Positions 15,716-30,978 of a DNA stretch of 64,000 nt are shown one piece after another. Position numbers and translations under genes: made by a program. The stretch covers positions 310,001 through 374,000 of the forward strand of contig JAGAIP010000005.1 in assembly GCA_017626495.1 (NCBI GenBank), written 5' to 3'. Numbering within the stretch: position 1 is the first letter of the stretch; each line of letters begins with the position of its first letter. The DNA is from Clostridia bacterium. Lineage in GTDB: Bacteria > Bacillota > Clostridia > Christensenellales > Borkfalkiaceae. The notes below the pieces were generated by a model. It searched no databases. It was given only the letters and a program-made list of their open reading frames with translations, and was not told the DNA's origin.

Positions 15716-16474
15716 ATGAAGAGAGACAGAGTTGAAGAACTTGCAGAACTTCTCGACAAAAGAGGCAAAATGACGCTGGAACAACTCGAAGAGTGTTTTC
15801 CCAACGTATCTCAGATGACGCTCAGAAGAGACCTGTTCCAACTCGAAGAGGACGGCAGGATCATTCGCGTCAGAGGCGGAGCCATGTCCGTCAAGGAAAT
15901 TCAAAAAGTCGCAGGCGAACCCTACGCAAAAAAGACGGTCATTCATACCGATGAAAAAATCGTGATCGCACAGAAAGCCGCGGCGCTCATCGACGACGGC
16001 TCTTCCCTGTTCATCGACGGAGGAACGACCGCGCTACATCTCGCAAAGGAGATTGCCGACCTCAACTGCACCGTTTTCACGAACGGCATTGCGGTCGCAT
16101 GCGAACTTGCGCAGAAGAAAAATCTGAAAATCACCGTCATCGGCGGACAGCTCATCAAGGAAAATCTTTCCACGGCGTCGCCCATGGCGAAGGAATACTT
16201 CAACGGCATGAACTTTGAACTTGCCGTCATTTCCGCGTCCGCGTTTACGCCCGTGAACGGATTCTCCTGCAATTCTCAGATCGAGGCGGATCTTCTCAAA
16301 CTCGTATGTTCCAAGGCAAAGGCGGTCTATATGATGCTCGACTCTTCCAAGATCGGAAAGGTCATGCCCTATACCTTTGCGCACATCGACGACATCAACG
16401 TGCTCATCACCGATCAGTATTTCCCCGATGAAATGAGAGCGGTATTCCAGGAAAACGACATCGTCGTCATGTAA
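15716..16474 (+). CDS. DeoR/GlpR-family transcriptional regulator
   Basis: A 252-residue regulator with an N-terminal winged helix (KRDRVEELAELL; recognition helix region SQMTLRRDLFQLEEDGRI, residues about 33-50) and a DeoR C-terminal sensor domain of the ribose-isomerase fold (FIDGGTTALHLAKEI, and the ligand loop NGFSCNSQIEADL). Such repressors sense phosphorylated sugars. I start at ATG 15716, 7 nt after GAGGAA; a GTG at 15701 lies in that ribosome binding site and is unlikely. No sugar gene is adjacent; instead the gene is followed directly by the 92-bp repeat array. Confidence 0.88.
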   Translation: MKRDRVEELAELLDKRGKMTLEQLEECFPNVSQMTLRRDLFQLEEDGRIIRVRGGAMSVKEIQKVAGEPYAKKTVIHTDEKIVIAQKAAALIDDGSSLFIDGGTTALHLAKEIADLNCTVFTNGIAVACELAQKKNLKITVIGGQLIKENLSTASPMAKEYFNGMNFELAVISASAFTPVNGFSCNSQIEADLLKLVCSKAKAVYMMLDSSKIGKVMPYTFAHIDDINVLITDQYFPDEMRAVFQENDIVVM

Positions 16475-16835
16475 CAAGCGTGCCGCTTGACCCCGTTAGT
16501 TCGGACAGACTTACTGTGCCGACGAGGCGTATACACACCTCGTCGGCATTCTTTTTATCCGTTCGCCAAGCGTGCCGCTTGATCCCGTTAGTACGAACAA
16601 TGTTACCGTGCCGATGAGGCGTATACACACCTCGTCGGCATTCTTTTTATCCGTTCGCCAAGCGTGCCGCTTGATCCCGTTAGTTCGGACAGGCTTACTG
16701 TGCCGACGAGGCGTATACACACCTCGTCGGCATTCTTTTTGTCCGTTCGCCATGCGTGCCGCATGCCCCGATTGTACCGACAATCAATTCACTGCCGCCG
16801 AATCGAAAACGATTCGGCGGCGCTTTATTTTCCGT
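16475..16835 (+). repeat. Array of three exact-length 92-bp repeats plus a diverged fourth, each with two hairpins
   Basis: Units at 16475-16566, 16567-16658 and 16659-16750 have an exact 92-bp period and differ at few positions; a fourth unit (16751 to about 16835) keeps the layout with different bases. Each unit has a small hairpin CAAGCG-TGC-CGCTTG and a long one TGCCGACGAGG...CCTCGTCGGCA followed by TTCTTTTT (plus strand only). In unit four the small stem is CATGCG-TGC-CGCATG and the long stem GCCGCCGAATCG/CGATTCGGCGGC, so pairing is preserved by compensating changes. In unit two the long stem keeps pairing through a G-U. The period is not a multiple of three and no frame repeats, so it is not coding. 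It can at least serve as serial terminators. Confidence 0.85.
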
Positions 16836-16881
16836 TTTCTACGCAAAAAACGGCAATATAAAATATCGCCGTATCCATCGT

Positions 16882-17979
16882 TCATTGTTTCAATAATTCA
16901 TACAGTTTTTGCTTGAATCCGTACGTTTCGACAAGCTTTTCGATCTCCCGTTCGTTGCGCCTGGAAGGAACTTTTTCCTTTCTGCCGCGAATCATGATAT
17001 TTTTCGGAGAATGCTCGAAATCGACGAACTCGATCATATCCACCCGGTAGCCCGCGTCCTCCAAAAGCATCGCTCGGACGGAGTCGGTCAAAAGCGCGGA
17101 TACTCTCTCCTTGACGATGCCGTAGCGGAAAAAAATATCCATATCGCCGCCCTGATGAATGGAGAGATTGACTTCGTGTTGACAACAGGGAACGGAAAAA
17201 ATGTATTTTGCTCCTTTTTCCACCGCATAGGCGAGAGCGTAGTCCGTCGCCGTATCACAGGCGTGCAAGGTAACGATCATGTCGATCTTTTCTTCATATA
17301 AGACGTCTTTCGTGACGTCGGCGACCACAAATTCGAGGGAAGAATAGCCGTAGCTCTTTGCAATTTCATTGCAGCGTTCCACCACGTCTTTTTTCAGATC
17401 GTACCCGATCACCTTGACGGAAATTCCCTTTTTGAACGTAAAATAATAGTATAAAATAAAAGTCAGATAGCTCTTTCCGCACTCGAAGTCGAGAATCGTG
17501 AGGGAAGTTTCCCCCGTTTCGCGGAAAGCGTCGTCCACGAGCTCCAAAAAGCGGTTGATCTGTTTATACTTATCGTACTTTGCCTTGACGATTTTGTAGT
17601 CCTTTGTAAAGACGCCGAGATCGACGAGCGCGGGAACTTCCTCGCCCTCTTCGAGAAGATAGCGTTTTTCTCTGTCGTGCGACTGATTTTGCGCTTTCAG
17701 GTCGTTTTTCGTCTCCTTTTTGCGGTATTCCCCATTGCCGCCGCGCGACAACAGCACCGTTTTCCCCTCGTAAAAGATGGAAATCTGCTTGAATTTCCCC
17801 TCGATTTCTGTGGCAAAAAAGGCGTCGAAATCCTCGAAATTCGTGTGAAAAACCTGGTTGTTTTTGTATTTTTCCGCCTGAAAATACGCCGTTTTTCCCT
17901 GTACGGGACGAACGGTCAGTTTTTTGTATTCGCCGAGCGCGTCGGTTGCGGTGAGACGGATCAAGTTTTGCGTATTCAT
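16882..17979 (-). CDS. SAM-dependent methyltransferase
   Basis: A 365-residue protein. After an N-terminal region of about 150 residues rich in beta strands comes a Rossmann-type methyltransferase core: LTILDFECGKSYLTF (motif I, near 190), VIGYDLKKD (motif II), FVVADVTKD (motif III) and MIVTLHACDTATDYAL (motif IV), then SVPCCQHEVN. The LHACDTATD and PCCQHE signatures are those of the METTL25/RRNAD-like methyltransferase group, whose bacterial members probably act on rRNA or another RNA (family knowledge, substrate unproven). I start at 17979 because the ATG overlaps the stop of the upstream HAD gene (ATGA). Confidence 0.8.
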   Translation of the reverse strand: MNTQNLIRLTATDALGEYKKLTVRPVQGKTAYFQAEKYKNNQVFHTNFEDFDAFFATEIEGKFKQISIFYEGKTVLLSRGGNGEYRKKETKNDLKAQNQSHDREKRYLLEEGEEVPALVDLGVFTKDYKIVKAKYDKYKQINRFLELVDDAFRETGETSLTILDFECGKSYLTFILYYYFTFKKGISVKVIGYDLKKDVVERCNEIAKSYGYSSLEFVVADVTKDVLYEEKIDMIVTLHACDTATDYALAYAVEKGAKYIFSVPCCQHEVNLSIHQGGDMDIFFRYGIVKERVSALLTDSVRAMLLEDAGYRVDMIEFVDFEHSPKNIMIRGRKEKVPSRRNEREIEKLVETYGFKQKLYELLKQ

Positions 17980-30128: not shown

Positions 30129-30203
30129 GGCTCCTTGGTCAAGAGGTTAAGACATCGCCCTTTCACGGCGGCAACATGGGTTCAATTCCCGTAGGAGTCA
30201 CCA
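30129..30203 (+). tRNA. tRNA-Glu (TTC)
   Basis: A 75-nt cloverleaf, acceptor GGCTCCT/AGGAGTC with one G-U pair, anticodon loop CTTTCAC, CCA encoded. A terminator begins at its last base. Degenerate copies of its 3' third recur downstream at about 30401-30435 and 30751-30786. Confidence 0.95.
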
Positions 30204-30240
30204 AAAAGAAAAGACAGACAATCGTCTGTCTTTTCTTTTT
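30203..30240 (+). terminator. Terminator of the fMet-Met-Glu tRNA operon
   Basis: AAAAAGAAAAGACAGA-CAATCG-TCTGTCTTTTCTTTTT starts at the CCA end of tRNA-Glu. Confidence 0.9.
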
Positions 30241-30254
30241 GATATTTTATATGA

Positions 30255-30276
30255 ATTCAATCGGTTGTTGCCGCCG
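30255..30276 (+). repeat. Left copy of a 22-bp direct repeat bracketing the island
   Basis: A 22-bp sequence starting ATTCAATCGG and ending TTGCCGCCG recurs exactly at 32296-32317; with one mismatch the match extends 5 bp further left (TATGA against TATGG). The two copies enclose about 2 kb. Confidence 0.8.
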
Positions 30277-30286
30277 TGAACTTCTT

Positions 30287-30435
30287 GGGGTCCCCACAAA
30301 GCATTTCGTAGAAAGGCTTTGTGGGGAAAGGAGGCGCAACGGAGTGATTTTGCAGACGGGCACACTTGCCCGTCTGCTCGGAGCGGAGTTTGCGCCGACG
30401 CCGCAACATGGGTTCCGCCGTAGGAGTCACCAAAA
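30287..30435 (+). repeat. Palindromic repeat unit A with a tRNA-Glu-like tail
   Basis: Two perfect hairpins: CCCCACAAAGC...GCTTTGTGGGG, and GCAGACGGGCA-CACT-TGCCCGTCTGC, joined by AAAGGAGGCGCAACGGAG. The tail GCAACATGGGTTC plus CGTAGGAGTCACCAAAA repeats the last third of tRNA-Glu but lacks part of the T loop. It is followed by a terminator hairpin CCGTACA-AAAA-TGTACGG-TTTTTT (about 30440-30466). Confidence 0.85.
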
Positions 30436-30439
30436 CAAA

Positions 30440-30466
30440 AACCGTACAAAAATGTACGGTTTTTTG
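30440..30466 (+). terminator. Terminator-like hairpin after repeat unit A
   Basis: CCGTACA-AAAA-TGTACGG then TTTTTT. After unit C the same position has only ACGTACAAAAATG and no stem. Confidence 0.7.
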
Positions 30467-30522
30467 TTTTGTATGTTTTCTCAGGAATTGAGCCCAAACC
30501 AGCCGACGTGAAATTATCATCA

Positions 30523-30630
30523 GGAGTCCCCATAAAGCATTTCGTAGAGAGGCTTTGTGGGGAAAGGAGGCGCAACGGAGCGATTTTGCAGACGGGCACA
30601 CCTGCCCGTCTGCTTCGAGCGGAGTTTGCG
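30523..30630 (+). repeat. Palindromic repeat unit B, tail missing
   Basis: The same two-hairpin core as unit A with a few substitutions, ending at AGTTTGCG; the tRNA-Glu-like tail is absent. Confidence 0.85.
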
Positions 30631-30635
30631 TAATC

Positions 30636-30786
30636 GGGGTCCACGCAAAGCGTTTCGTAGAAAGGCTTTGTGGGGAAAAGGAGGCGCAACGGAGCGAAGT
30701 TGCAGACGGGCACACTTGCCCGCCTGCTGAAAGCGGAGTTTGTGCCGACGCCGCAACATGGGTTCCGCCGTAGGAGTCACCAAAAT
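30636..30786 (+). repeat. Palindromic repeat unit C with a tRNA-Glu-like tail
   Basis: The third copy of the core, five bases after unit B, again followed by the 3'-tRNA-Glu-like tail ending TAGGAGTCACCAAAA. Frames across these repeats on the minus strand are not genes: they have no ribosome binding site and only reflect the repeats. Confidence 0.85.
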
Positions 30787-30978
30787 AAAAAAACGTACAA
30801 AAATGCTCCTTCTCATAAGGAAGTTGAAATTTTCTTGTATGGACCGACGTCCTCAACTATCCGCAAAGGAATAAGATCGATCCGCAGAAAACAAGAAATT
30901 ATCCCGACGGATTTTCGAAGTCTCACATGGTTGGTTTATTCTGTTCGATAAATTGGAATATAGCGAACGGGCAATCTG

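Follow-up and report, generated by a model that had tools for sequence, protein, structure and literature searches.

Behind a gene for a DeoR-family transcription regulator, a window of 64,000 nucleotides from a Clostridia bacterium, which is the whole stretch of DNA that was analysed, contains an array of repeats that has probably arisen by local amplification, in direct tandem, of a mosaic module resembling BIME and REP elements, and which would provide serial terminators and 3'-end hairpins behind deoR. The module family is best read as a group of structured 3'-UTR repeats that are REP/BIME-like in their behaviour and not contained in Rfam. In the following, G000 denotes the genome of the window, a metagenome-assembled genome (MAG) of 1.33 Mb that is 79% complete, G001 the MAG RGIG8762 of the same genus from the gut (colon) of a water deer, which is 97% complete, and G002 a third genome of the genus. 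The small hairpin, the outer stem and the inner hairpin of a unit are termed P1, P2 and P3. The features of the region are as follows:

15716..16474, + strand: gene of the DeoR-family transcription regulator (Pfam DeoRC and HTH_DeoR), whose orthologues are 91% (G001) and 90% (G002) identical
16475..16566, + strand: unit 1 (covariance model R1, 94.0 bits; fold; layout), with P1 at 16475-16489, a linker ending in TAGT at 16490-16500, the 5' arm of P2 at 16502-16506, P3 at 16516-16549, a T-rich spacer at 16550-16560 and the 3' arm of P2 at 16561-16565
16567..16658, + strand: unit 2, laid out as unit 1 (R1, 94.3 bits; fold), with P1 at 16567-16581, P2 at 16594-16598 pairing with 16653-16657 and P3 at 16608-16641 (one U-G pair)
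16659..16750, + strand: unit 3, laid out as unit 1 (R1, 96.9 bits; fold), with P1 at 16659-16673, P2 at 16686-16690 pairing with 16745-16749 and P3 at 16700-16733
16751..16838, + strand: unit 4, diverged (R1, 28.2 bits; fold; terminator scan match at 16793-16822), with P1 at 16751-16765 (CATGCG/CGCATG), an extra linker hairpin at 16770-16785 (GATTGT/ACAATC) and an inner hairpin at 16793-16822 with a T-rich tail, without outer stem
16882..17979, - strand: convergent downstream gene of a methyltransferase-domain protein (Pfam Methyltransf_32)

Unit 1 starts on the base following the stop codon (TAA) of the DeoR gene, and about 40 bases separate the end of the array from the stop codon of the convergent methyltransferase-domain gene. 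A single array with a period of 92, 3.1 copies, 91% matches and 0% indels was detected by TRF at 16475-16762, and the last unit is set apart by its score with model R1 (28 vs 94-97 bits), the whole array extending over 16475-16838. Its composition of three units of 92 bp and one diverged unit is as described in a first-pass annotation of the sequence. In further agreement with this annotation, units 1-3 have a P1 that reads CAAGCG-TGC-CGCTTG, which is replaced by CATGCG-TGC-CGCATG in unit 4, and the inner stem of unit 2 (GCCGAUGAGG with CCUCGUCGGC) is held via a U-G pair. The same annotation had assigned a small and a large hairpin to each unit, which are both present, but it had overlooked the outer 5-bp stem P2 of units 1-3, where CGGAC (CGAAC in unit 2) is matched beyond the T-run by GTTCG or GTCCG, thereby enclosing P3, a 15-bp hairpin with a 3' T-run. 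Since this stem is apparent from folding, the full unit comprises P1, the linker, P2 and P3. Compared to shuffled sequences, each unit folds with a z-score between -4.6 and -5.7 and the entire array region with a z-score of -11.4. Allowing for up to three mismatches, the P1 motif is found 10 times in the window vs 1.7 expected occurrences.

Elsewhere in the window (30129-30800), a tRNA gene is followed downstream by two further copies of its 3' half (GCAACATGGGTTC...GTAGGAGTCACCAAAA), at least the first of which precedes an A-stem-T hairpin of its own. The copies are interleaved with a 114-bp repeat (30534-30742) that holds two long palindromes; together they may represent scars of integration or a different family of repeats.

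In G000, modules are confined to the array of the window. Related modules are abundant in G001, where at least 49 were identified in the DNA examined, 49 of the 52 non-overlapping modules in total. These are organized in about 18 intergenic clusters, and since contigs of G001 end within modules, further copies are likely. With up to one mismatch, the P1 motif is found 18 times in G001 vs none for a reversed control, and it is not found in G002. Some of the G001 modules display segment lengths that are identical to the window units with different bases in the stems. Their common layout consists of P1 (15 nt), a linker of 11 nt with TAGT or a similar sequence at its end, a single nucleotide, the first strand of P2 (5 nt), 9 nt, P3 (15+4+15), 11 nt and the second strand of P2 (5 nt). 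A second subtype in G001 carries the outer stem AACARGC/GTTTGTT. The resulting consensus module contains a P1 of 6-8 bp with a 3-nt loop, a linker ending in (N)TAGT, a P2 with the conserved 5' strand RACARGCT and a P3 forming a near-perfect hairpin of freely changing sequence with a T-biased 3' side. In G001, arrays combine both subtypes and several types of P1, with modules in either orientation that often form inverted pairs whose P1 hairpins are on the outside. At the loci L078, L083 and L084, the inner hairpins belong to recurrent sequence families (TCGGGGCGAATCGG, TAAAGTCGGGTTG, GTAAAGGTGYGGGAT, GTAAAAACGCAGGG), which look as if they had been swapped as cassettes within one scaffold.

The first-pass annotation had argued from one changed pair that selection acts on RNA structure, an argument that holds on a much larger set, with 16 of 26 pairs covarying in one subtype and 14 of 27 in the other. 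For this analysis, the two subtypes of fixed layout were aligned separately, which cured the poor alignment of stems in an initial MAFFT alignment of mixed subtypes, from which RNAalifold had extracted little. Of the 260 pair cells in ten modules of the window subtype, 95% contain standard pairs, and two-sided changes are found in the above-mentioned 16 pairs compared to 2-4 in controls with slid partners. They include 5 of the 6 pairs of P1, whose pairing had played no part in the choice of modules. In the second subtype, 94% of the pairs are standard. These alignments support the notion of a module structure that is conserved beyond its sequence. The attribution to RNA has to be qualified, as template-switch correction of DNA, besides selection on RNA, can make a near-perfect palindrome covary. 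The excess of G-U over A-C combinations in stem cells (83 vs 24) is weak support for a role of the RNA because it is mostly found at few fixed positions. As its architecture persists through the replacement of stem sequences, the family could serve to test if repeats of this kind are maintained for their RNA (3' ends, stop-proximal hairpins) or for their DNA (mobile hairpins).

Comparison with sister genomes suggests that the modules have moved. The DeoR orthologues in G001 and G002 are followed by a short A/T-flanked hairpin just after the stop codon and no array. Conversely, a convergent junction behind a MutY-like gene (named by eye) harbours a module in G001 and none in G000 and G002. At this same junction (L112 1500-3300; G000:C23, about 385500-387300), G000 contains unrelated DNA of about 1.6 kb that seems to encode protein, and G002 is devoid of both this DNA and the module. 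Since orthologous sites in sister genomes are empty, the modules constitute a lineage-specific propagating repeat, and since copies reside at different places in both carriers, where comparable, the family propagates or has propagated. A propagating element, one of the possibilities offered in the first-pass annotation, fits best. Related copies are present in a second genome, and the array probably represents a single case of local amplification of a repeat that is otherwise interspersed. Such repeats can rebuild gene 3' ends between sister species. No target-site duplication was evident by eye at a G001 site (L078:7164-7420), where the flanks are too diverged from the empty sites to define exact borders.

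The covariance-model search of relatives proposed in the same annotation did recover covarying copies in G001, although not in many genomes. Model R1 was run on 201 genomes of the family, 396 of the order and 391 of the class, in overlapping sets, and model R2 on 301 genomes of the family, overlapping with the sets of R1; within these sets, only G000 and G001 carry modules. Weak matches in other genera (G008, G264, G292 and G482) were upon inspection found to be plain terminator-like hairpins that contain neither P1 nor P2. When 84,980 species were scanned for the pattern, the G001 contigs were retrieved along with scattered unrelated matches, whose number is about as expected by chance, and searches of viral contigs, plasmids and phages yielded no modules. 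As judged from sequence searches, the repeat family is thus restricted to two species from a single genus among the genomes searched. In Rfam, neither the window array nor the G001 loci produced a match at the gathering threshold, and an E-value search with the array returned only low-scoring matches far below gathering thresholds. A reading of the modules as integron attC sites was dropped by eye, as neither cassettes nor matching AAC/GTT core boxes are present.

The placement of modules relates them to the ends of genes. In both species they are intergenic and mostly located near gene 3' ends. With genes called by simple ORF rules, 18 gene 3' ends have a module within 60 nt; at 15 of these, the nearest module reads in sense and turns its P1 towards the stop codon (P = 0.0075). 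There is no gap between stop codon and module at DeoR and at L089, and a stop codon is located inside P1 in two cases. In 36 distinct modules, 4.2 of the 9 bases following P3 are T on the drawn strand vs 2.7 on the other (P = 0.0002), although this and the P value for orientation are optimistic because the modules are related. The window units 1-3, with 7 T within the 9 bases after the stem, are among the strongest, whereas T-runs are weak in most G001 modules, and a role as terminator is therefore clear only in the window. There, the deoR strand has a GC-rich hairpin with a T-run right behind it; a simple terminator scan recognises only unit 4, since the stem is not continuous close to the loop in units 1-3.

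These properties bear on two simpler explanations. The array could consist of ordinary intrinsic terminators in series, which were tandemly duplicated without involvement of any special element, as might be proposed from the inner hairpin and T-run found in all four units, from the location between convergent genes and from the hairpin directly after the stop codon in the sister genomes. We consider this highly improbable, as P1, the linker, P2 and their exact spacings recur in G001 with other stem sequences and often without strong T-runs, which already contradicts it, and as the terminators of relatives match the model only at E-values of about 1e-3 and are devoid of P1 and P2. The earlier claim that serial terminators alone would not suffice is borne out by the P1, linker and outer stem that are common to both genomes. 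Similarly little credence is given to a further suggestion of the first-pass annotation, a small-RNA array in which each tandem unit would yield its own RNA of about 90 nt by transcription or processing. The exact 92-bp period with a T-run after each unit would yield discrete 3' ends, but a scan found no promoter-like site within the array, for which reason this proposal is not supported, and modules elsewhere are interspersed in both orientations, mostly beside stop codons.

Our preferred explanation, the tandem amplification of a REP/BIME-like module, would involve the following steps. A family of palindromic mosaic repeats would have spread within one genus of gut Clostridia, with modules being inserted or copied behind genes, where, as part of the 3' UTR, their RNA hairpins may serve as 3'-end structures. 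Behind the DeoR gene, one module would have been amplified in direct tandem, thereby placing T-run hairpins in series. The four inner hairpins with their T-runs would then act as serial terminators conferring tight termination on the deoR transcript, might protect this transcript as a barrier to 3' exonucleases and would shield the convergent neighbour from read-through. Located on the base after the stop codon, P1 may in addition slow translation termination, an effect that hairpins near stop codons reportedly exert in case of E. coli REPs.

How the modules spread could be accounted for in other ways. They might be true members of the REP/BIME class, whose single-stranded hairpins are mobilised in trans by a Y1 HUH transposase (RAYT) or by IS200 TnpA. 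In favour of such assignment are the GTAG-like foot (GGTAGT) preceding the hairpin in many G001 modules, the inverted pairs and mosaic arrays, the extragenic location near gene 3' ends as found for REPs (PMC3733652) and the presence of Y1_Tnp in G000 and G001 and its absence from four other genomes checked. We nevertheless regard it as unlikely, as the window units contain TTAG instead of GTAG, the modules are longer and consist of two parts, and the Y1_Tnp matches in both carriers are restricted to IS200-type TnpA and fragments. In G001, a single full Y1 protein was found, an IS200 TnpA (NF033573, 141.9 bits), which scores 34.9 bits with the RAYT model NF047646, below its cut-off of 80, and at the visible right end of this IS200 there is no module, the ends of the element being unlike the module. 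The IS200-type TnpA gene and a TnpA fragment are found at contig ends, at L074 (G001:C45) and L075 (G000:C7). No RAYT (TnpA_REP) gene was found in G000 or G001, which are both incomplete MAGs, and no module-flanked transposase was recognised among the part of the module-adjacent genes that was searched. Similarly doubtful is a new kind of mobile element with a structured 3'-UTR RNA module as its unit, which lands beside stop codons in sense, keeps three stems while replacing their sequences, tunes translation termination and transcript ends of the gene in front of it and possibly relies on an RNA-templated machinery.

Most descriptions of REP/BIME repeats come from Proteobacteria and some other phyla. 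To this world, the modules would add a family of covarying repeats with several stems from gut Clostridia of an uncultured lineage, for which the usual transposase was not found. With intrinsic terminators, the window units share the GC-rich hairpin and T-run on the deoR strand, whereas the modules differ by their conserved P1, linker and P2 and by the many G001 copies without a strong T-run. Like MITEs, the modules are small, non-coding, intergenic, folding and lineage-specific, with empty sites in relatives; unlike in MITEs, the two ends of a module composite are often different in module type and P1, target-site duplications were not seen (by eye, in diverged flanks) and no matching autonomous transposon was found. 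REPINs are paired inverted REPs that constitute non-autonomous mobile units (PMC3116915), to which the inverted module pairs of about 200-250 bp that are common in G001 correspond, whereas the window copies are in direct tandem and a dedicated transposase was not found. Finally, REP/BIME repeats are extragenic palindromes downstream of genes with mosaic or inverted organization, a GTAG (or GGAG) foot 5' of the hairpin and a patchy distribution (PMC3733652, PMC6006769). The modules equally are short extragenic palindromes with mosaic arrays, inverted pairs, a location downstream of genes and a patchy range. The interspersed mosaic and inverted arrangement is found in G001, whereas the copies in the window are direct only. 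The foot of the module is NTAGT, which is GTAG-like in part of the copies, with GTAG in many G001 modules, TTAG or ATAG in others and TTAG in the three full units of the window. Further differences concern the length of about 91 nt, the combination of a triloop hairpin with a nested P2/P3, hairpin sequences that change freely between copies and the lack of a detected RAYT in the incomplete MAGs. We do not claim REP membership, given that the GTAG foot varies among modules and is missing in the window units and that no RAYT was detected; it is in their behaviour that the modules come closest to REP/BIME repeats (PMC3733652, PMC6006769, PMC3116915).
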